Shown in pieces: positions 14,043 through 28,973 of a stretch of DNA of 64,000 bases. A program made the position numbers and the translations under genes. Numbering within the stretch: position 1 is the stretch's first letter; the number at the start of each line of letters is the position of its first letter. Under the pieces are notes generated by a model, which ran no database searches, was not told the DNA's origin, and saw nothing but the letters and a program-made list of their open reading frames with translations. Origin of the DNA: Dictyoglomus sp. NZ13-RE01 (lineage in GTDB: Bacteria > Dictyoglomota > Dictyoglomia > Dictyoglomales > Dictyoglomaceae); contig NIRF01000001.1 of the NCBI GenBank assembly GCA_002878375.1, positions 299,931 through 363,930 of the forward strand, in the 5' to 3' direction.

Positions 14043-14071
14043 TTGACAAAAGTAAGAAGGTATAGTATAAA
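14043..14071 (+). promoter_or_regulatory. Promoter of the tRNA Lys-Glu-Val operon
   Basis: -35 TTGACA (14043-14048), 17-bp spacer, -10 TATAAA (14066-14071). The start point falls about 10 bases before tRNA-Lys. Before the island inserted, this promoter would also have served tRNA-Asp and tRNA-Thr, now at 28798-28973. Confidence 0.8.
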
Positions 14072-14087
14072 AATTACGTGCTTGGTT

Positions 14088-14163
14088 GAGCCGCTAGCTC
14101 AGTCGGTAGAGCACCTGACTTTTAATCAGGGGGTCACAGGTTCGATTCCTGTGCGGCTCACCA
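14088..14163 (+). tRNA. tRNA-Lys(TTT)
   Basis: Cloverleaf with acceptor GAGCCGC/GCGGCTC, anticodon loop CTTTTAA (anticodon TTT), discriminator A and encoded CCA. Confidence 0.96.
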
Positions 14164-14172
14164 GTGAGAGGT

Positions 14173-14250
14173 GCCCTCATCGTCTAGCCCGGCCTAGGAC
14201 ACCGCTCTTTCAAGGCGGTGACGGGGGTTCGAATCCCCCTGAGGGCGCCA
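14173..14250 (+). tRNA. tRNA-Glu(TTC)
   Basis: Cloverleaf with acceptor GCCCTCA/TGAGGGC, anticodon loop CTTTCAA (anticodon TTC), discriminator G and encoded CCA. Confidence 0.95.
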
Positions 14251-14253
14251 AAG

Positions 14254-14329
14254 GGGCGGATAGCTCAGAGGTGAGAGCGCCTGCCTTACAAGCAGGAGGT
14301 CGTAGGTTCAAATCCTGCTCCGCCCACCA
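14254..14329 (+). tRNA. tRNA-Val(TAC), integration target
   Basis: Complete cloverleaf with acceptor GGGCGGA/TCCGCCC, anticodon loop CTTACAA (anticodon TAC) and encoded CCA. Bases 14276-14329 recur exactly at 28717-28770. The gene is therefore the attachment site of the downstream island, and its 3' part now comes from the element's own att copy. Confidence 0.96.
14276..14329 (+). repeat. attL: 54-bp direct repeat inside tRNA-Val
   Basis: Identical over 54 bp to 28717-28770. It begins AGCGCCTGCC at the edge of the anticodon arm and ends with the CCA. The flanks differ on both sides (G versus A before, T versus A after), which defines the repeat. It preserves a working tRNA after insertion, as is usual for tyrosine-recombinase elements. 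Confidence 0.93.
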
Positions 14330-14426
14330 TCTCTTTTAAATGTATATTTCATCTATATTTCCTCTTTTTTAATCATATTATTAACTCTTTATCTCTTTCA
14401 CTATTTTTGAAGGAGGCAGGCGTACT

Positions 14427-15323
14427 ATGAAAAACAAAACTGTCTCCTGGAAAAGTTTACTTGATAATTTTTTCTTTTACTCACAAATTAATGGAAAGAG
14501 ACCTAAAACCCTTCTATGGTATAAAGACACACTAATACCCTTCACAAATGCCGTTCCCCTTGAAGAATTAAATATGTACTCCATTAGCAAATATATTGCA
14601 TCACTTAGAGAAAGAGGACTAAAGCCTGCCTCTATTGATACTCATATAAGAGCCATAAAAGTATTTTTAAAATTTTTGTATGATGAGGGATATTTAGAAG
14701 AAGACATATCAGCAAAAATAAAAAGGTATAAAATTCCAAAGAGTTATCCAAACATTTTAAACGATGAACAAATCTTCAATCTGCTTAAGGCATGCGATAA
14801 AAAATCATGGATTGGATTTAGAAATTACGTGATAATTCTCACCTTCTTGGATACTGGAATAAGGCTTTCTGAACTTATTAACCTAACTGTGAACGATGTA
14901 AACATAGCAAAAAGAAGCATACTAATAAGAGATGGAAAGGGAGGAAAAGACAGAGAAGTATACATGGGAAAAACCCTTGTAAGGGAGATGGCTAAATGGT
15001 TGAAAATGAGAGGATTTTATCCCTATGAGGAGCGAGTTTTTATTACAAAGGATGGATATCCTCTAAAGCCAAGATACATCCAAAAGTTTATTCAAAAATT
15101 AGGAAAAGAGGCAGGAATAAAAGGAGTAAGATGCTCTCCTCACACACTCAGGCATACCTTTGCAACAAATTTCATCCGAAACGGTGGAGATGTTTTTTCT
15201 CTTCAGAAGATTTTAGGGCACTCAGATATATCAACTTGTATGATATATGTTCACATGGGAGGAAAACAATTGCAGGAGGCAATGATGAAGTTTAGTCCAG
15301 TGGATAGATTGGAAAGATATTAG
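14427..15323 (+). CDS. Tyrosine recombinase (integrase)
   Basis: Site-specific recombinase of the XerC/D class. An N-terminal SAM-like core-binding domain (1-95) precedes the catalytic domain with Arg146 (TGIRLSEL), Lys171, His239 and Arg242 (HTLRHTFA), His265 (ILGHSDIST) and nucleophile Tyr274. The ATG lies 98 bp past the tRNA-Val CCA, next to the att site, reading inward. Ribosome site GGAGG upstream. Integrated, it can only be read from the tRNA promoter or a weak local one. In the circle it lies directly downstream of the promoter at 28664. Confidence 0.93.
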   Translation: MKNKTVSWKSLLDNFFFYSQINGKRPKTLLWYKDTLIPFTNAVPLEELNMYSISKYIASLRERGLKPASIDTHIRAIKVFLKFLYDEGYLEEDISAKIKRYKIPKSYPNILNDEQIFNLLKACDKKSWIGFRNYVIILTFLDTGIRLSELINLTVNDVNIAKRSILIRDGKGGKDREVYMGKTLVREMAKWLKMRGFYPYEERVFITKDGYPLKPRYIQKFIQKLGKEAGIKGVRCSPHTLRHTFATNFIRNGGDVFSLQKILGHSDISTCMIYVHMGGKQLQEAMMKFSPVDRLERY

Positions 15324-15386: not shown

Positions 15387-16910
15387 ATGTGGTTTGGGAA
15401 GCTTGACATAACAACACTTGAAAATTGGTTGTGGGAAGCAGCTTGTAGTATTAGAGGTCCTATTGATGCTCCAAAGTATAAAGATTATATTATCCCTCTT
15501 ATTTTTTATAAACGTTTATGTGATGTTTATGAGGATGAGATTAGAAAGTTAAGTAAAGAGTTTGGAAATGTGGAAACTGTTAAAGATTTAGTTAGTCATG
15601 ATCGTGGACTTGTTAAATTTTACATCCCTGAAGATTGTTTATGGGAGAATGTAAGAAAGATTACTGTAAATCTTGGTGAAAAATTGACTGAGGCACTAAG
15701 GAAGATAGCAAAAGAAAACCCAAAGCTTCAAGGTGTAATTGATATAGTTGATTTTAATGCAACTCAAGCAGGTCAAAGAATTATTGATGATGACAGACTT
15801 CAAAATCTCATGCAAATATTAAGTAAATATAGGTTAGGCTTGGAGGATGTAGAGCCAGACATTTTAGGTAGAGTTTATGAATATCTTTTGAGAAAGTTTG
15901 CAGAAGGTTCAGGACAAAGTGCAGGAGAGTTTTACACTCCAAGAGAAGTTGGTCTTTTGATGGCTTACTTAATTGATCCTAAAGAAGGCGAAGAGGTTTA
16001 TGACCCTGCTTGTGGTTCTGGTGGGCTTTTGATAAAAGCGCAACTTGTTCTTAAAGAAAAAAATAATGAAATTAAAAGACCTTTAAAACTATATGGACAG
16101 GAGATAAACCCATTAACCTATGCTATGGCGAAGATGAATGCTTTTGTCCACGATATGGAGGCAACTATTGAAATAGGAGACACAATTAGAAACCCTAAGT
16201 TTATAGAAGGTGGAAAGGTAAAGAGGTTCGATAAAGTTATTGCAAATCCAATGTGGAATCAAAAATTCCCCCAAGACATCTTTGAAAATGATCCCTATAA
16301 TAGATTTTCCTTTGGAATTCCTCCCTCAAATCAGAGTGCGGATTGGGGATGGATACAGCATATGTATGCATCTCTGAAAGATAATGGGAAGTTAGTTGTT
16401 GTTATAGATACTGGCGTTGTAACAAGAGGCTCAGGAAGTTCAGGAACAGATAGAGAAAAGGAAATAAGAAAGAAATTTGTTGAGCAAGACCTTATTGAGG
16501 CGGTAATCCTCTTAGTTGATAACTTATTCTATAACACTACTGCACCAGGAAATATAATTGTAATTAATAAGGCAAAGAAGCATAAGGGAGAGATTTTACT
16601 TATTAATGCATCAAAGGAATATGCAAAAGGAAGACCAAAGAATTATCTTACAGAAGAGAATATAAATAAAATTGTGGATGCATATTTCGGATGGAAGGAG
16701 ATAGAAGGCTTTTCAAAGATTATAACTATAGAGGAGGCACGAAAGAACGATTATAATTTAAGCCCTTCCCGCTATATATCAATTGATGAGGAGGAAGAAA
16801 TTCCACCTGTTGAGGATATCCTTATTGAGCTTGCAGAAATTGAAGAGGAACGAGAGAAAATTGATAAAGAACTTAAGGAGATTTTAGGAAGGATTGGGTT
16901 TGAGGTATGA
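15387..16910 (+). CDS. hsdM: Type I restriction-modification methyltransferase subunit HsdM
   Basis: N6-adenine methyltransferase of a type I RM complex. An N-terminal HsdM domain (~1-150) is followed by GEFYTPREVGLLMAYLI and AdoMet motif I (VYDPACGSGGLL). Motif IV reads NPMWN instead of the commoner NPPF/Y, a variant known for HsdM proteins. A C-terminal helical tail contacts HsdS. 507 residues, full length. GGAGGC precedes the ATG. The stop overlaps hsdS by 4 bp. Confidence 0.95.
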   Translation: MWFGKLDITTLENWLWEAACSIRGPIDAPKYKDYIIPLIFYKRLCDVYEDEIRKLSKEFGNVETVKDLVSHDRGLVKFYIPEDCLWENVRKITVNLGEKLTEALRKIAKENPKLQGVIDIVDFNATQAGQRIIDDDRLQNLMQILSKYRLGLEDVEPDILGRVYEYLLRKFAEGSGQSAGEFYTPREVGLLMAYLIDPKEGEEVYDPACGSGGLLIKAQLVLKEKNNEIKRPLKLYGQEINPLTYAMAKMNAFVHDMEATIEIGDTIRNPKFIEGGKVKRFDKVIANPMWNQKFPQDIFENDPYNRFSFGIPPSNQSADWGWIQHMYASLKDNGKLVVVIDTGVVTRGSGSSGTDREKEIRKKFVEQDLIEAVILLVDNLFYNTTAPGNIIVINKAKKHKGEILLINASKEYAKGRPKNYLTEENINKIVDAYFGWKEIEGFSKIITIEEARKNDYNLSPSRYISIDEEEEIPPVEDILIELAEIEEEREKIDKELKEILGRIGFEV

Positions 16911-18175
16911 AGGTAAAAGAAAACGGATTTAAAGAGACAGAAATCGGATTAATCCCAGAGGATTGGGAAGTTGTGAGGCTTAAAGATGTAGCAGTTTATA
17001 TGAAAGCAGGTGGTACTCCAAGAAGAACGGTAAAAGATTATTGGAATGGGGATATACCATTTGTGAAAATAGAGGATATAACATCGTCCAACAAATATAT
17101 TTTAACTACTAAGGAATACATCACAAAAAAAGGTTTGGAAAATTCAAGTGCTTGGTTAGTCCCAGAAAATTCTATCTTGTTAAGTATGTATGCAAGTATA
17201 GGTGAAGTTGCTTTAACAAAATTTCCTGTAGCCACTAATCAGGCAATTTTAGCTATAATACCAAACACTGATAAGGTATCTATCGATTTCTTATACTATT
17301 CACTAAAATTCCATGAGGAAAAACTAAGCTCTTATACAGTTCAAACCACGCAAAAAAATGTTAATAAAGCCATAACTGAAAATCTTTTAATCCCCCTCCC
17401 CCCTCTTGATGAACAAAAAAAGATTGCGAAAGTGCTTGATAAAATACAGCAGGCAATAGAGATTCAGGATAAAATCATTGAAAACACCAAAAACCTAAAA
17501 AAATCACTCATGCAAAAACTTTTTACAGAAGGGCTTTATGGCGAGGAACAAAAAGAGACAGAAATTGGATTAATTCCTAAGAGTTGGGAAGTGGTGAGAT
17601 TGGGGGAAGTGGCGGTATTAAATCTAGGAAGAACTCCAGATAGGAGCATTAAAAAATATTGGGAAAATGGTTCAATTCCTTGGGTAAAAATCCAAGATTT
17701 AAACAATAATATAATTTATGATACATCAGAAAAAATTTCAGATATTGCATTTAAAGAAAAATTTGGGAATAAATTCGTCCCTCAAGGTACTATATTATTA
17801 AGTTTTAAATTGACCATAGGAAGGGTTGGGATTTTGGGAATAGATGCAGTTCATCATGAAGGAATTGTCTCCTTATTTTTGAATGAGGACAAAGTAAATA
17901 AAGAATTTTTGTTTTTTCTACTTCAAAATATGGATTATAATGACTACATTGACAATTATGTTAAAGGTAAAACATTAAACAAAGAAAAGTTAAAAATTCT
18001 CCCTATCCCCCTCCCCCCTCTTGAAGAGCAAAAAGAGATTGCCCACATATTAAGCACAGTGGATAAAAAAATAGAGATTGAGCAAAAAAGAAAGGAAGTT
18101 TTAAAGAGGCTATTTAAAACAATGCTACATAAACTTATGACTGGAGAAATAAGGCTTAAGGAGATAGACCTATGA
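16907..18175 (+). CDS. hsdS: Type I restriction-modification specificity subunit HsdS
   Basis: Provides DNA target recognition. There are two target-recognition domains, each opened by ETEIGLIP..WEVVRL (residues ~7 and ~218) and closed by PLPPL(D/E)EQK..IA plus a long helix that acts as spacer. The two halves share repeated DNA, including a 20-bp stretch of C tracts at 17390-17409 and 18005-18024. Both halves look complete, so a bipartite recognition site is expected. The sequence does not tell the recognised bases. ATGA overlaps link it to hsdM and hsdR. Confidence 0.94.
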   Translation: MKVKENGFKETEIGLIPEDWEVVRLKDVAVYMKAGGTPRRTVKDYWNGDIPFVKIEDITSSNKYILTTKEYITKKGLENSSAWLVPENSILLSMYASIGEVALTKFPVATNQAILAIIPNTDKVSIDFLYYSLKFHEEKLSSYTVQTTQKNVNKAITENLLIPLPPLDEQKKIAKVLDKIQQAIEIQDKIIENTKNLKKSLMQKLFTEGLYGEEQKETEIGLIPKSWEVVRLGEVAVLNLGRTPDRSIKKYWENGSIPWVKIQDLNNNIIYDTSEKISDIAFKEKFGNKFVPQGTILLSFKLTIGRVGILGIDAVHHEGIVSLFLNEDKVNKEFLFFLLQNMDYNDYIDNYVKGKTLNKEKLKILPIPLPPLEEQKEIAHILSTVDKKIEIEQKRKEVLKRLFKTMLHKLMTGEIRLKEIDL

Positions 18176-21060
18176 CTCTTATATCCGAAAGTAAAGACGT
18201 CCAAGATGTAATAATAGACTATCTACAAGGGATAGGATGGAAATATATCCCGCCTTATGACCTGATGGTATTAAGAAACTTTGAAAGTAGCGAGCCATTA
18301 ATTACTGATATTCTAAAAAATAAGCTCATAGAACTAAATCCAGGAGTAATAACAGAAAAAAACTTCGATAATATTATTACACGATTAAAACTCACACGTG
18401 CCACATTGGAAGGGAATAAAGAAATCCTTGAATACTTAAGAGGAAATAAAACGGTTTATGTAGAAAGTGAGAAAAGGGAAAGAAATGTTAAATTTATTGA
18501 TTTTGAGAACATAGAAAATAATGACTTTTCATTCACTAAAGAATTTACCTTTAAGGACAAAGAAAACAGAAGACTTGACATTGTCCTATTCATTAATGGA
18601 ATACCCATCATAGACCTTGAGCTAAAAAAACCTACTGTTTATGAAGCAGAGGAAGAAGCCTTTGAGCAAATTAGTGTCTACAACCATGTACTTCCCGAAC
18701 TTTTTAAATATTTACAAATTTATGCCATATCTGATGGCATAAACCTATATTATGGACCCACATGGAAGTACGAAAGCAAAACATTTTATAAATGGAAAGT
18801 AGAAAATGGACTAAACCTCGAGAAAGCAATCAAAACCTTTTTTGATAAAGAAGAGATAATAAAAGTTATACAATCCTTTATTGTATTCATGACAATAGAC
18901 GAAGAATTACAAAAATACATCCTTAAACAGCATCAAAGAAGAACCATAAGAAAGGTAATTAAGAGAGTTTTGGAGGAGAAAGATAAGAAGAAAGGACTAA
19001 TATGGCATACACAAGGCTCCTATAAAACCCTCACAATGATAGTCTTAGCAAACGAACTAAGAAAATTATCAGAACTTGAAAACCCCACCATTCTCGTTGT
19101 GGTTGATAGACTTGAACTTGAAGCCCAAATTTACCAAAATTTTCAAGCCTTTGGCTTTCAAAACCTAATTAGAGCGGAAAGTAAAGAACACCTTCAAGAC
19201 CTTCTTAAATCTGACTATAGGGGACTTATTATTACTACAATACACAAATTTGAAGGAATGCCCAAAAATATCAATAGTAGGGAAAACATAATCGTATTAA
19301 TTGATGAGGCTCACAGAAGCCAAGAAGGAGACTTAGGAAATTACATGAGAGGAAGCCTGCCCAATGCCTTCTACTTTGGATTTACAGGAACCCCTGTAGA
19401 CAATACAAAGGTAGGTAAGGGAACATTTATAGCCTTTGGATATCCACCCGACGAGCCTTATCTTGATAAATATACCATTGATGAATCCATACAAGACGGC
19501 ACAACAGTACCCTTATACTACACCCTAACACAATCAGAGCTACACGTTGATAAAGAAACCCTTGAAAAAGAATTCTTTAAAATCGTTGAAGAAGAAGGAA
19601 TTACAAGCCTTGAAGGTATAAATAAGATAATTGAAAGGGCAGAAAAATTAAAATCAATATTAAAATCATACGACAGAATAGACAAAATTGCCAAACACAT
19701 TGCAGAACATTACCAAAAATATGTTGAGCCGTTAGGTCTTAAAGCCTTCATTGTTGCAGTTGATAGAGAAGCCTGCGCCCTCTATAAAGAAGCAATAGAC
19801 AAATATTTAGACCCTGAATATACAAAAGTTGTTTATACAAGTTACTATAAAGACTCAGACCTTCTAAAAAAATACTACCTTAGCGATGAAGAAGAAAAAA
19901 GACTAAGAAAAGAATTTAAATCCCCCGATAAGCTTCCAAAAATCTTAATAGTAACTGAAAAACTTCTTACTGGATATGATGCCCCAATCCTCTATATAAT
20001 GTATCTGGATAAACCACTAAAAGACCATACACTTCTTCAGGCAATTGCAAGAGTAAATAGACCCTACGAAAACAAAAAAAGTGGCTTAATAATAGACTAC
20101 ATAGGCATATTTGACAACTTACAGAGAGCCCTCTCCTTCTATAGCAAGGATATAGACGCAGGACTTATAGACTTTGAGAAATTAAAAGAAAAATTTAAGC
20201 TTCTAATGGATGAGGTGGACAAAATCCTAAACGACTTAAATTTGGAAGAAAAAGAAGAAAAAGACAGAATCTCCAAAATTTTAGACTACTTTTTTGAAGA
20301 AGAAAAAAGACAAAACTATTTTAACCTCTTCAAACAGATAGAAGAAATTTACGACATCCTATCACCCGACCCCTTCCTATATGAGTATATAAGAAAATAC
20401 AAGCTATTAGTTCAAATATACATGATACTATATCAATACTACAACCCAGAGGCAGAAAAAAGGAAAGTAAGAAGAAGCGTATTAAAGAAAACAGAAAAAC
20501 TAATACAAAAAAATGTTGAATTAGAAAAATTAATTGACTCACTGCCATTATACGAAATAAATAAAGATATTGCCACAACCATTAAAAACGACAATATTCC
20601 AGATAGGGTTAAGATAGCCAACTTATACAGAAGTTTAATAAAACACATAGAGGAAAACAAAAAAAGATTCCCCTATCTTATCTCCCTCTCTGAAAAGATT
20701 GAAGAAATAATTAAAGAGCTAAAGGAAAGACAAAAAAGCGTTGAATTAGCTCTTGAAGAACTATCAAAAATAGCTGAAGAAATAGCAAACGCAGAATCCG
20801 AATTAAAACACTATAACCTAAGCAAAGAAGAATTTAGCTACTTCTGGATACTTAGAAAGTATAAAAAAGATAAACCACAGGAACAGGCAAAGAAAATAGC
20901 AAGCCTAATAAACTCATATAGCTATTGGATGTATAACAAAGATGATGAGAAAAATTTAAGAATTAAACTATATAAATTACTTGGGGCATCAACCGAAAAT
21001 GTAGAGCTTGTCAACCTTATCTTAGGAATGGACAAATTAATTAAGGAGCAAAAAGAATGA
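18172..21060 (+). CDS. hsdR: Type I restriction endonuclease subunit HsdR
   Basis: Translocating endonuclease subunit. The nuclease domain is N-terminal (LDIVLFINGIPIIDLELKKP, PD-(D/E)xK type). The SF2 motor follows: motif I around residue 281 reads TQGSYKTLTM, where TQGSGK(S/T) is expected, so Gly is replaced by Tyr284. Motif II is LIDEAHRS, motif III GFTGTP, and motif VI QAIARVNRP. A coiled-coil-rich C-terminal domain reaches 962 residues. Everything but motif I looks functional. It overlaps hsdS and the metalloprotease gene by 4 bp each. Confidence 0.93.
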   Translation: MTLISESKDVQDVIIDYLQGIGWKYIPPYDLMVLRNFESSEPLITDILKNKLIELNPGVITEKNFDNIITRLKLTRATLEGNKEILEYLRGNKTVYVESEKRERNVKFIDFENIENNDFSFTKEFTFKDKENRRLDIVLFINGIPIIDLELKKPTVYEAEEEAFEQISVYNHVLPELFKYLQIYAISDGINLYYGPTWKYESKTFYKWKVENGLNLEKAIKTFFDKEEIIKVIQSFIVFMTIDEELQKYILKQHQRRTIRKVIKRVLEEKDKKKGLIWHTQGSYKTLTMIVLANELRKLSELENPTILVVVDRLELEAQIYQNFQAFGFQNLIRAESKEHLQDLLKSDYRGLIITTIHKFEGMPKNINSRENIIVLIDEAHRSQEGDLGNYMRGSLPNAFYFGFTGTPVDNTKVGKGTFIAFGYPPDEPYLDKYTIDESIQDGTTVPLYYTLTQSELHVDKETLEKEFFKIVEEEGITSLEGINKIIERAEKLKSILKSYDRIDKIAKHIAEHYQKYVEPLGLKAFIVAVDREACALYKEAIDKYLDPEYTKVVYTSYYKDSDLLKKYYLSDEEEKRLRKEFKSPDKLPKILIVTEKLLTGYDAPILYIMYLDKPLKDHTLLQAIARVNRPYENKKSGLIIDYIGIFDNLQRALSFYSKDIDAGLIDFEKLKEKFKLLMDEVDKILNDLNLEEKEEKDRISKILDYFFEEEKRQNYFNLFKQIEEIYDILSPDPFLYEYIRKYKLLVQIYMILYQYYNPEAEKRKVRRSVLKKTEKLIQKNVELEKLIDSLPLYEINKDIATTIKNDNIPDRVKIANLYRSLIKHIEENKKRFPYLISLSEKIEEIIKELKERQKSVELALEELSKIAEEIANAESELKHYNLSKEEFSYFWILRKYKKDKPQEQAKKIASLINSYSYWMYNKDDEKNLRIKLYKLLGASTENVELVNLILGMDKLIKEQKE

Positions 21061-21377
21061 AACAAAAAGAAATTGATAAAGAAATTACAAAGGAGAAAAT
21101 ATTAGAACTTTGCAACAAATGGCAGAATATACTAAAGGTCAAAGTAAATAGAATACAAATAAGAAAAATGAAAAATAAATGGGGCTCCTGCTCCTCTAAG
21201 GGCAACCTTACACTCAATAAAGAATTAACAAAACTATCCCTTGATTGCGTTGAATATGTAATAGTCCATGAGCTCCTGCACCTCATTGTCCCTAACCACG
21301 GAAGAATCTTTAAAACCTTACTTTACACATACCTACCTGACTGGGAAAAAATACATAACAAACTAAAAAATTATTAA
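21057..21377 (+). CDS. YgjP-like (DUF45) metallopeptidase, RM-associated
   Basis: 106 residues with KWGSCSSKGNLTLN, then the zinc motif HELLHLIVPNHG (HExxH plus downstream His), matching the YgjP/WLM-type family. The ATG overlaps the hsdR stop (ATGA), so it is translated as the fourth gene of the RM operon. Homologues follow hsdR in many type I operons; their role there is not established. Turnover of HsdR would be a guess. Confidence 0.82.
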   Translation: MKQKEIDKEITKEKILELCNKWQNILKVKVNRIQIRKMKNKWGSCSSKGNLTLNKELTKLSLDCVEYVIVHELLHLIVPNHGRIFKTLLYTYLPDWEKIHNKLKNY

Positions 21378-23187: not shown

Positions 23188-23243
23188 GTCACTCGTCACT
23201 TGTCACTCGTTACGTGTCACGCGTCACTCGTTACATATCACTC
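23188..23243. repeat. Heptanucleotide repeat array 1
   Basis: Eight consecutive 7-bp units with consensus GTCACTC (GAGTGAC on the minus strand), some with one or two changes (GTTACGT, GTCACGC, GTTACAT, ATCACTC). The array begins at the stop codon of the secreted repeat protein gene (23242-23244) and runs downstream of it. Confidence 0.8.
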
Positions 23244-24711
23244 ACTTAGTAGGATATGGTCCTGTATTCCCATCTGCATCAAGCTTTAAGATGTATACAT
23301 CACTTTTTCCTGCTCCAAAGGATTCTGTATTCCCAGCAACAATGTACCCCCCATCACTTGTCTGTTGAATGGCAAATGCTCCATCACTAGAATCTCCCCC
23401 AAAATTCTTTTGCCAAACTAATTCTCCATTTGCATCAAGCTTTAAAATATATACATCACTCCCTCTTGCTCCAAAGGATGTTGTATATCCAGCAACAATA
23501 TATCCTCCATCACTTGTCTGTTGAATGGAACGTGCTTCATCACCACCCCATCCGCCAAAAGTCTTTTGCCAAACTAATTCTCCATTTGCATCCAGCTTTA
23601 GGATGTATACATCTCTTCCTCCTGCTCCAAATGACTTTGTATATCCAGCAACAATATATCCCCCATCGCTTGTCTGTTGAATGGAACTTACTACATCATA
23701 ATATTTTCCACCAAAAATTTTTTCCCAAACTAATTCTCCATTTTCATCAATTTTTAAGATATATACATCTTCATCTGAATCTCCAAATGATTCTGTATAT
23801 CCAGCAACAATGTATCCACTATCACTCGTCTGTTGAATGGAGTATGCTTCATCCCAACCACTTCCACCAAAAGTCTTTTGCCATACTAAATTACCGTTTG
23901 CATCAAGCTTTAATATGTATACATCCCTTCCTCCTGCCCCAAAGGAACTTGTATATCCAGCAACAATATATCCTCCATCGCTTGTCTGTTGAATGGAATT
24001 TGCTTCATCATCACTACTTCCACCAAAAGTTTTTTTCCAAACTAAATTTCCATCGGCATCAAGCTTTAAGATGTATACATCTCCTCCTGCTCCAAAGGAG
24101 TATGTATATCCAGCAACAATATATCCTCCATCACTTGTCTGTTGAATAGAATTTGCTTCATCATCACTACTTCCACCAAAAGTCTTTTGCCACAATAAAT
24201 TTCCATTCTCATCAAGCTTTAAGATGTATACATCACTCCATCCTGCTCCAAAGGAGTATGTATATCCAGCAACAATATATCCTCCATCACTTGTCTGTTG
24301 AATAGAATTAGCTCCATCTTCATCGGTTCCACCAAAAGTTTTTTGCCAAACATTAATCGGTGCAGTATTATTTACAATTATGTTTATCCTTACAGCAGAT
24401 TTGTTCCCTGATTCATCATACGCAATTACTGCAAGATTATAAACCTTATTAGGATAATATAAAGTATTCCATTCAAATTCATAAGGTGATTCATCATCTT
24501 CTCCTACTTTTCTATTATCAATATAAAACTCAACTTTTGCTACTCCTACGTTATCACTTGCATTCACTTGGATAGTGATAACTCCTGAAACAGTTTGCCC
24601 ATTTTTTAGGTTAACAATAGAGACTTTTGGAGGCATTGTATCTACTTCAGAAAAGCTAATTGTGAGAAGAAATAAAAATAAAATTAAGAGGCTTACAAAA
24701 ACTTTTTTCAT
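23242..24711 (-). CDS. Secreted protein with Ig-like domain and seven ~50-residue repeats
   Basis: A signal peptide (MKKVFVSLLILFLFLLTISFS) is followed by a bacterial Ig-like domain (~25-115). Then come seven repeats of about 50 residues built on W.KTFGG...D.A.SIQQTSDGGYIVAGYT.SFGAG..DVYILKLD.NG. Seven units suggest a closed seven-bladed beta-propeller. The repeats are also similar at DNA level (about 150 bp period), which implies recent duplication. Similar repeat proteins occur in thermophilic bacteria and archaea. The cell-surface role is unknown. GGAGGTAA precedes the ATG. Confidence 0.8.
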   Translation of the reverse strand: MKKVFVSLLILFLFLLTISFSEVDTMPPKVSIVNLKNGQTVSGVITIQVNASDNVGVAKVEFYIDNRKVGEDDESPYEFEWNTLYYPNKVYNLAVIAYDESGNKSAVRINIIVNNTAPINVWQKTFGGTDEDGANSIQQTSDGGYIVAGYTYSFGAGWSDVYILKLDENGNLLWQKTFGGSSDDEANSIQQTSDGGYIVAGYTYSFGAGGDVYILKLDADGNLVWKKTFGGSSDDEANSIQQTSDGGYIVAGYTSSFGAGGRDVYILKLDANGNLVWQKTFGGSGWDEAYSIQQTSDSGYIVAGYTESFGDSDEDVYILKIDENGELVWEKIFGGKYYDVVSSIQQTSDGGYIVAGYTKSFGAGGRDVYILKLDANGELVWQKTFGGWGGDEARSIQQTSDGGYIVAGYTTSFGARGSDVYILKLDANGELVWQKNFGGDSSDGAFAIQQTSDGGYIVAGNTESFGAGKSDVYILKLDADGNTGPYPTK

Positions 24712-27676: not shown

Positions 27677-27705
27677 AAAGAGGATATACTAAGGAGATGA
27701 TAGAG

Positions 27706-28017
27706 ATGAGTATTGGAGAAAGGCTTAGAAGTGCGAGGAAGCAAAAAGGATTGACCATAGCAGAACTTGCAAAATTATTGGGAGTTGCTCCAATTACAGT
27801 AAGTAGATATGAGACAAACAAAAGAGAGCCCGACATTGAAACCCTAAAAAAGCTCAGCGACATATTAGATGTTTCTGTGGACTATCTACTTGGGAAAGAG
27901 GATGTAAAAATTGCAACATCCCTCTCCTATGGAGACCTTTCAGACCTTCCAGAAGAAGCAAGAAGGTCAATTGAAGAATTCATTGAGTTTGTCAGAAAGA
28001 AATATGGGAAAAAATAA
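27706..28017 (+). CDS. CI/ImmR-like XRE repressor
   Basis: 103 residues: helix-turn-helix IGERLRSARKQKGLTIAELAKLLGVAPITVSRYETNKREPD, then a DVSVDYLLGK linker and a short C-terminal part without a self-cleaving peptidase. Induction would therefore depend on the ImmA-type protease encoded next, as in ICEBs1. The start is ATG 27706, 9 bp after GGAG. It presumably binds the TAACC-N5-GGTTA operators. Confidence 0.88.
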   Translation: MSIGERLRSARKQKGLTIAELAKLLGVAPITVSRYETNKREPDIETLKKLSDILDVSVDYLLGKEDVKIATSLSYGDLSDLPEEARRSIEEFIEFVRKKYGKK

Positions 28018-28031
28018 TCTTGAGGTGATGA

Positions 28032-28481
28032 ATGCTTTCTAATCTTCTTAAAATCATTGAAGAAGAAGGTATTCATATTGAGTGGTGGGACTTCAAAGAA
28101 CCAATCTCCGCTGTCTATGTAGAAATAAATAACTCAAAAATCATAGGACTTAGAAAAGAAATAGTAAGAAGCAACAAAAAACTCAAATGCACCCTTGCGG
28201 AAGAGCTGGGACACTACTTCACAGGCTCCACCTACAGCAAAAGAAAACCAAAAAACTACAGAGAAAAAATAGAAATATCAAAAGAAGAATACAAAGCAAA
28301 AAAATGGCAAGCCTTTTATCTCATTCCAGAGGAAGAATTCATAAAAGCAATTAAAAAAGGAATAAGGGAAGTTTGGGAGCTTGCAGAATACTTTGACGTA
28401 GACGAAGAACTAATAAAATTCTACTTAGACATTCCAAAGGTAAAAGAAAACCTAATTGGAGTATGCAAGTTTGAAGACTAA
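28032..28481 (+). CDS. ImmA/IrrE-type metalloprotease
   Basis: 149 residues. The zinc motif CTLAEELGHYFTG (Glu57, Glu58, His61) has the EExxH form common in phage ImmA proteins instead of HExxH. In ICEBs1 such a protease cleaves the ImmR repressor to trigger excision, and its position after the repressor gene fits. GAGGTG lies 6 bp before the ATG. Confidence 0.85.
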   Translation: MLSNLLKIIEEEGIHIEWWDFKEPISAVYVEINNSKIIGLRKEIVRSNKKLKCTLAEELGHYFTGSTYSKRKPKNYREKIEISKEEYKAKKWQAFYLIPEEEFIKAIKKGIREVWELAEYFDVDEELIKFYLDIPKVKENLIGVCKFED

Positions 28482-28490
28482 GGAGAAAAA

Positions 28491-28667
28491 ATGAGAAGAG
28501 GAAGAAAACTAACAAAAGAAGAAGTAATAAAAATTCTTGGAGAAGAGATTGGAAGGAATGCAAAAATATTCATAGAACTTGAAAACGAAACAGAAAACTT
28601 AGACGAAGAAACAATAAATAAGTTAAAAGAAATAATCAAGAAGAGTCTTGCGAACTCTAAATATTGA
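28491..28667 (+). CDS. Small basic protein, 58 residues
   Basis: MRRGRKLTKEEVIKILGEEI followed by a charged helical tail. Its ribosome site (AAGGAGA) overlaps the end of the ImmA gene 9 bp upstream, so it belongs to the repressor operon. The N-terminus resembles a short DNA-binding or AT-hook-like stretch, and the position next to attR would suit an excisionase, but that is only positional. Not recognised as a family. Confidence 0.6.
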   Translation: MRRGRKLTKEEVIKILGEEIGRNAKIFIELENETENLDEETINKLKEIIKKSLANSKY

Positions 28668-28692
28668 CACGGAGGTGAGAGTATGATAAAAT
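28664..28692 (+). promoter_or_regulatory. Outward promoter at the right end of the element
   Basis: -35 TTGACA (28664-28669, exact consensus), 17-bp spacer, -10 TAAAAT (28687-28692, one change). It fires rightward across attR. In the excised circle it leads into the integrase gene about 150 bp downstream. When integrated it leads into tRNA-Asp and tRNA-Thr. It is the best-matching promoter inside the element. Confidence 0.65.
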
Positions 28693-28787
28693 CTGGACAG
28701 TTAAAAATTGGGGCGAAGCGCCTGCCTTACAAGCAGGAGGTCGTAGGTTCAAATCCTGCTCCGCCCACCAAATTAAATATGGTATAA
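28683..28787 (+). CDS. Short ORF running through attR
   Basis: Preceded by a strong ribosome site (GGAGGTGA, 6 bp spacing). Integrated, it encodes 34 residues, most of them from the tRNA repeat, and ends in host DNA. In the circle the same frame continues through the att core into the left end and ends at 14430, where its TGA overlaps the integrase ATG (62 residues). It may be a translational coupling device rather than a functional protein. Confidence 0.4.
   Translation: MIKSGQLKIGAKRLPYKQEVVGSNPAPPTKLNMV
28717..28770 (+). repeat. attR: 54-bp copy of the tRNA-Val 3' part
   Basis: Exact copy of 14276-14329, from the anticodon arm to CCA. It lacks the tRNA 5' half, so it is not a tRNA gene. 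The six bases GGGGCG a few bases upstream happen to match the acceptor start, which gives it a look of a tRNA without D-arm. Confidence 0.93.
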
Positions 28788-28788
28788 T
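28780..28788 (+). promoter_or_regulatory. Extended -10 promoter before tRNA-Asp
   Basis: TGGTATAAT matches TGnTATAAT, 10 bases before tRNA-Asp. It lies on the host side of attR. The -35 position falls inside the att repeat and is poor. Confidence 0.5.
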
Positions 28789-28797
28789 AGATAAAAA

Positions 28798-28876
28798 GGG
28801 GTCGTGGTGTAGCCCGGTTTAACACGCCTGCCTGTCACGCAGGAGATCGCGGGTTCGAATCCCGTCGACCCCGCCA
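28798..28876 (+). tRNA. tRNA-Asp(GTC)
   Basis: Cloverleaf with acceptor GGGGTCG/CGACCCC, anticodon loop CTGTCAC (anticodon GTC), discriminator G and encoded CCA. Originally the fourth gene of the Lys-Glu-Val-Asp-Thr operon. Confidence 0.95.
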
Positions 28877-28896
28877 TTTTTTATATGGAGGCTATT

Positions 28897-28973
28897 GCCG
28901 GTGTAGCTCAGCTGGTTAGAGCAGCCGATTCGTAATCGGCAGGTCGCCGGTTCGAATCCGGCCTCCGGCTCCA
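28897..28973 (+). tRNA. tRNA-Thr(CGT)
   Basis: Cloverleaf with anticodon loop TTCGTAA (anticodon CGT), discriminator T and encoded CCA. One T-T mismatch appears at position 6 of the acceptor stem. The CCA is followed after 7 bases by the ATG of the next gene. Confidence 0.93.

Follow-up and report, generated by a model that had tools for sequence, protein, structure and literature searches.

An integrative element that inserts within a tRNA operon raises the question of how its integrase is transcribed in the integrated and excised states, and of what happens to the tRNA genes that are severed from their promoter. We addressed this question in a window of 64,000 nucleotides, the whole stretch of DNA that was analyzed, from a heat-loving bacterium of the Dictyoglomus family with a genome of 1.93 Mb. 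The window holds a phage-like integrative element of 14.4 kb between identical 54-bp att cores (attL, 14276 to 14329; attR, 28717 to 28770), each covering the 3' portion of tRNA-Val, which spans the anticodon arm through the CCA. The tRNA genes, att cores, promoters, attachment-site motifs, integrase gene (int) and immunity operon described below all lie on the plus strand. Intact genes for tRNA-Lys, tRNA-Glu, and tRNA-Val (14088 to 14329) stand to the left of the element and genes for tRNA-Asp and tRNA-Thr (28798 to 28973) to its right, as called by ARAGORN and seen in the alignment with empty sites. In element-free relatives the tRNA-Lys, tRNA-Glu, tRNA-Val, and tRNA-Asp genes (with tRNA-Thr in two genomes) form one cluster behind a promoter of the TTGACA-N17-TATAAA type. 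The window has this predicted promoter at 14043 to 14071, and its TTGACA and TATAAAA are conserved in the empty-site relatives. Because empty sites have a single cluster and a conserved promoter, we concluded that the element has split a five-gene tRNA operon into a Lys-Glu-Val and an Asp-Thr part. The tRNA-Asp gene is directly preceded by an extended -10 of its own in host sequence (TGGTATAAT, 28780 to 28788), with equivalents at four empty or partial sites; at empty sites it reads TGNTATAAT. The TG of this extended -10 (window 28783 to 28788; L068 near 17950) is kept at empty sites and lost in the element-bearing D. turgidum, possibly through relaxation, with the element supplying a promoter.

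The element encodes a type I restriction system, an integrase, a repressor, an ImmA-like peptidase, a DnaC/replisome organiser, a holin, and an endolysin, and it combines a phage-type integrase and repressor with replication and lysis genes, as a prophage or phage satellite does. No conjugation genes (relaxase, T4SS) were recognised among the element proteins scanned, which represent a part of its ORFs, and no capsid, terminase, or tail genes were found among the element ORFs scanned, which included part of the small ORFs. The int gene (14427 to 15323) encodes an intact tyrosine recombinase of 298 aa (Pfam PF00589, 9.8e-41; PHROG integrase). The other end carries an immunity-type operon (27697 to 28667) with an HTH repressor (27697 to 28017), an M78/ImmA-like peptidase (28032 to 28481), and a 58-aa ORF (28491 to 28667). 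The restriction cargo varies among related elements, being type I in the window (15387 to 21377) and type III-like in the element of D. turgidum (L068 9575 to 16149) and in a further relative, L037 (10860 to 13946). Large secreted or lipoprotein-like repeat proteins (SIQQTSDGGYIVAG...) are common to the three elements (window 23242 to 24711, L068 1400 to 7934, L037 3294 to 5462), with four copies in D. turgidum.

In the integrated state int lies 97 bp 3' of tRNA-Val on the same strand, behind the Lys-Glu-Val operon promoter, which points through the three tRNA genes towards it. We found no terminator-like site between tRNA-Val and int, and the 97-bp leader (14330 to 14426) had no recognizable promoter for int. 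A stem-loop attenuator of the ICEKp1 type was not found in the leader by the terminator-like site scan, and the fold of the leader was unremarkable. The host tRNA-Lys-Glu-Val promoter would thus be positioned to read through into int. A preliminary description of the locus had proposed that integration cuts int off from its promoter; this proposal was not supported, because the promoter of the three-tRNA operon lies upstream with no terminator found in between, and the equivalent promoter of ICEKp1 transcribes int.

At the opposite end of the element a predicted promoter (28664 to 28692) faces outward through attR, made up of TTGACA (28664 to 28669), a 17-bp spacer, and TAAAAT (28687 to 28692), with a TG before the -10 and a predicted start at about 28699. 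It scored 11 of 12, was one of the region's two top-scoring sites, and the sole one with a TG. The element of D. turgidum (G003) has TTGACA-N17-TAAAAT with an extended -10 at the same site and at equal distance, despite a different neighbouring gene. A gapless 74-bp alignment of the two right arms contains 20 differences (27%), none of which falls in the 12 hexamer positions or in the TG (hypergeometric p = 0.016, and 0.007 including the TG), and the conservation of this promoter probably exceeds chance. The near-consensus promoter reported in the preliminary description is present and conserved in a second element. Its predicted position upstream of int in the excised circle was also confirmed, although the distance from the -10 to int is about 175 bp and not the ~150 bp given there; as had been stated, no terminator-like site was found between the two in the joined circle. 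Lying at the end opposite int and facing the att core, the outward promoter would precede int in the circle as in ICEclc, the layout suggested earlier, and as in ICEKp1, and this arrangement is conserved in D. turgidum.

The sequence that follows the promoter resembles a tRNA. Starting 18 bp after the -10, a tRNA-Val relic with acceptor, anticodon, and T arms (28711 to 28770) was identified with the Rfam tRNA model and by its fold. The model matched end to end without the D arm at 28711 to 28767 with 35.3 bits against a cut-off of 29; the attP of L037 scored 35.8 and that of D. turgidum 28.8 against the same cut-off. ARAGORN called no tRNA at the relic. We considered a functional D-arm-less tRNA, for which the Rfam cut-off was passed, yet given the missing ARAGORN call we treated the sequence as a relic. 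The attP appears to consist of a tRNA relic that bears a promoter.

The same region contains a reading frame that the preliminary description had interpreted as a control device threaded through the att site. An SD-like GGAGGTGA (28671 to 28678) precedes an ATG at 28683, from which the frame runs to 28787 in the integrated state (34 aa); in the joined circle it stays open through the att core to 14430 as a 62-codon frame (MIKSGQLKIGAKRLPYKQEVVGSNPAPPTISFKCIFHLYFLFFNHIINSLSLSLFLKEAGVL, 62 aa, followed by a stop), and its TGA (14428 to 14430) overlaps the int ATG at 14427. All these features are as described. However, the predicted start at 28699 is downstream of both the SD and the ATG, so the outward promoter cannot express the frame, and its translation would need a transcript that begins farther 5', such as one from the repressor operon. 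The ATG is itself part of the conserved extended -10 TATGNTAAAAT. With the core held fixed, the frame was open in 22% of shuffled and 11% of random flanks. In D. turgidum it is open over 62 codons with the same TGA/ATG overlap and a weaker SD, an outcome expected in 20% of cases by neutral drift. The 26 substitutions in the frame between the two elements are spread flatly over the codon positions (6/10/10), and 15 of the 19 changed codons are non-synonymous, whereas int substitutions of the same pair fall 42/18/85 (difference p = 3e-4); the part of the frame in the int leader likewise evolves unlike coding sequence. In L037, L038, G006, and contig 12 of the window genome, all frames upstream of int close within 20 codons, before the core, and in L083 the coupling frame runs for 18 codons before a stop, while the frame in register with int is open for 46. 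The frame thus stayed open in the nearest relative, D. turgidum, but not in five more distant ones. A real gene spanning the att site was ruled out by start-site geometry, codon positions, chance openness, and the relatives, and these observations speak equally against the proposed control device. We also considered a hairpin hiding the int ribosome site, which would make translational coupling useful; the SD was mostly paired, but not above shuffles and with other partners in each element, and the leader was weakly folded at 75 C. The 62-codon frame looks accidental and without control of int, and may have arisen as a by-product of three features: the extended -10, from which its ATG comes, the conserved tRNA core, and a pyrimidine-rich leader.

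A 13-bp motif, GAGTCAGGCGAAC, recurs in the attachment sites. Allowing up to a few mismatches, it is present twice per attP in direct orientation, once before the int ATG, always over the int ribosome site, and once in the other arm, where its spacing to the core is constant. In the window these copies are GAGGCAGGCGTAC (14413 to 14425), directly 5' of the int ATG and overlapping the ribosome site GAAGGAGG at 14409, and GAGTCTTGCGAAC (28643 to 28655) on the right arm; with 2 mismatches, they are the two best matches to the motif in the window. The right arm of the D. turgidum element has an exact copy at the corresponding place, copies outside the window lie at L068 657 to 669 and 17816 to 17828, L037 9987 to 9999, L089 1762, and L090 1781, and all six relatives read have one directly before int. 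The motif resembles paired arm-type sites and is likely an arm-type or autoregulatory site. By analogy with the KplE1 class (PMC2951348), its overlap with the ribosome site would let the integrase or a helper limit int expression.

More distant relatives separate the outward promoter from int. L037 (JANXCA010000035.1, 16267 bp) is a closed circle with a 77-bp end overlap and belongs to the same element family. The contig was binned as Endomicrobia, its tRNA-Lys core is identical to that of Dictyoglomus, and it is probably a mis-binned excised element. Its core comprises the final 50 nt of tRNA-Lys, without any difference from the tRNA-Lys gene of the window, and is inverted relative to int. 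A TTGACA-N17-TAATAT sequence, with a -10 of only 4/6, faces this core and is directed away from int, because the core lies opposite to int. Counted on the sequence, the distance from the -35 to the anticodon arm is about 69 bp in L037 and about 70 bp in the native gene. Each of the seven element/tRNA junctions examined has a TTGACA promoter directed at the tRNA, and int is divergent in three of them (L037, G006, and contig 12 of the window genome). In G005, an element end with an arm motif lies upstream of tRNA-Gln and is followed first by a TTGACA promoter and then by tRNA-Gln and tRNA-Glu, both complete; this end has a gene homologous to the D. turgidum neighbour gene (56% over 153 aa) and a probable homologue of the 58-aa ORF of the window (33% over 49 aa, E 3e-4). 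Comparable junctions of promoter and tRNA are present in G004, G006, and contig 12; these are three of the seven at which the tRNA is complete, so the promoter there could be the host's own. Across the two close elements and the few junctions compared, several of which are decayed, the predicted outward promoter follows the tRNA and not int.

Scans of viral contigs and wider genome searches for further relatives returned nothing beyond L037, L038, and fragments in G062, and phage and plasmid collections contained distant recombinases only. The attR of the Atribacteria relatives was sought and not found. In D. thermophilum (L092, G004 C1:815252-818435) tRNA-Gln-Glu is turned around relative to groEL when compared with D. 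turgidum and further relatives; the remnant of an element arm, GTAGACAATTTTAAAAAGAAAGGAGG, adjoins the tRNA-Gln-Glu promoter. The window genome has two tRNA-Gln-Glu pairs, on contigs 12 (L073 1-1080) and 27 (L094), one of which adjoins a decayed integrase relative and has a different promoter.

We favour, with a probability of roughly 60%, the explanation that attP combines a tRNA relic with a tRNA-style promoter, which would re-drive the severed tRNA-Asp-Thr genes when the element is inserted and drive int when it is circular. All statements on transcription made here are inferred from sequence. In the integrated state the outward promoter would fire through attR and supply the tRNA-Asp and tRNA-Thr that are cut from the operon promoter. 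Upon excision it would take over the transcription of int from about 175 bp upstream, favouring re-integration. The extended -10 of tRNA-Asp at empty sites means that the operon may not need rescue, which weakens the tRNA supply role. This extended -10 fits an alternative explanation, that the outward promoter serves int in the circle, as in ICEclc and ICEKp1, and that read-out into tRNA-Asp and tRNA-Thr is incidental. The position and orientation of the promoter match those of P3'end and Pcirc (PMC13023037, PMC9286271), and it is conserved in both elements in which int follows the tRNA; however, it is directed away from int in L037, and int diverges in G006 and contig 12, which makes an exclusive role in int expression rather unlikely.

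It is less probable still that the promoter is a leftover of a captured tRNA gene with no selected role in either state. The attP does resemble a complete tRNA gene whose 5' half has decayed and whose promoter keeps the native distance, and the D. turgidum element has a truncated integrase, but decay spared the promoter and not the 5' half of the tRNA, and the hexamers and TG remained unchanged while 27% of the arm diverged. We consider very improbable the model of the preliminary description as a whole, in which int is silent when integrated and gains both a new promoter and translational coupling through the att frame in the circle. The frame, its SD, and the TGA/ATG overlap exist in both the window and D. 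turgidum, the SD of the latter being weaker; against the model stand the start site downstream of the ATG, the lack of a coding signature, the closed frame in L037, L038, L083, G006, and contig 12, the SD that int has of its own, the tRNA promoter upstream of the integrated int, and sequestration of that SD no greater than in shuffles. Returning to the promoter-bearing relic, a broader version is somewhat doubtful, namely that this integrase family carries promoter and relic in attP as a substitute control region that spares downstream tRNAs and is reused for int where the orientation of the core allows. If true, promoter and relic would be a host-sparing device for insertion into tRNA operons.

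Parts of this arrangement have precedents. ICEKp1, ICEclc, and ICEEc1 transcribe int from a tRNA promoter in the integrated state and from a promoter at the 3' end after excision (PMC13023037). For ICEKp1, RACE and RT-PCR showed that int is transcribed from the tRNA promoter in the integrated state, and no transconjugants arose once a terminator had been placed behind the tRNA (PMC13023037). As in these three elements, the Dictyoglomus int directly follows an intact tRNA gene on the same strand with the tRNA promoter pointing towards it, and as in ICEKp1 a predicted sigma-70 promoter at the other end would, upon excision, direct transcription through attP into int (PMC13023037). The int side of our proposal, promoter switching, would match this published mechanism; the tRNA supply role is our own deduction. 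Unlike ICEKp1, the Dictyoglomus element is phage-like, conjugation genes were not recognised in it, its target lies inside a multi-tRNA operon, its promoter sits on a tRNA relic and follows the tRNA over int in relatives, and no attenuating terminator was found in its int leader; the stem-loop attenuator in the int leaders of ICEKp1, ICEEc1, and ICEclc modulates the switch without constituting it. Pcirc of ICEclc is likewise an outward promoter at the end opposite int that is used in the circle, whereas the target of ICEclc is a tRNA-Gly gene, and the available parts of these reports do not note a re-supply of downstream tRNAs (PMC9286271, PMC2892462). A counterpart to the proposed supply role may be seen in dusA-associated islands, which bring putative -35 and -10 boxes so that the split host gene is still transcribed; these islands insert at the 5' end of a protein gene and not in a tRNA operon, and their integrase is of another family (PMC4482086).

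Among prophages, KplE1 intS and the class with the tRNA upstream on the same strand also have int beside a tRNA and recombination sites that overlap the control region, and negative autoregulation is predicted for most int genes of this class (PMC2951348). Their int promoter lies in attL (PMC2951348), whereas in the Dictyoglomus element none was found and an arm repeat overlaps the ribosome site instead. The incomplete prophage of D. turgidum DSM 6724 (1,301,419-1,318,825; PMC5167688) occupies the same tRNA-Val site and has a related integrase (79%) and conserved attP arms, but differs in its truncated integrase and in its restriction genes, which are of type III and not type I; in its available part, that publication does not describe attachment-site control. 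If the outward promoter keeps a severed tRNA operon alive, this would help to explain how insertions inside tRNA operons can be harmless. Switching of int promoters has so far been shown for a few proteobacterial ICEs, and, with the same layout in a phage-like element of Dictyoglomota for which no conjugation genes were recognised, it would reach much further across the bacterial tree.
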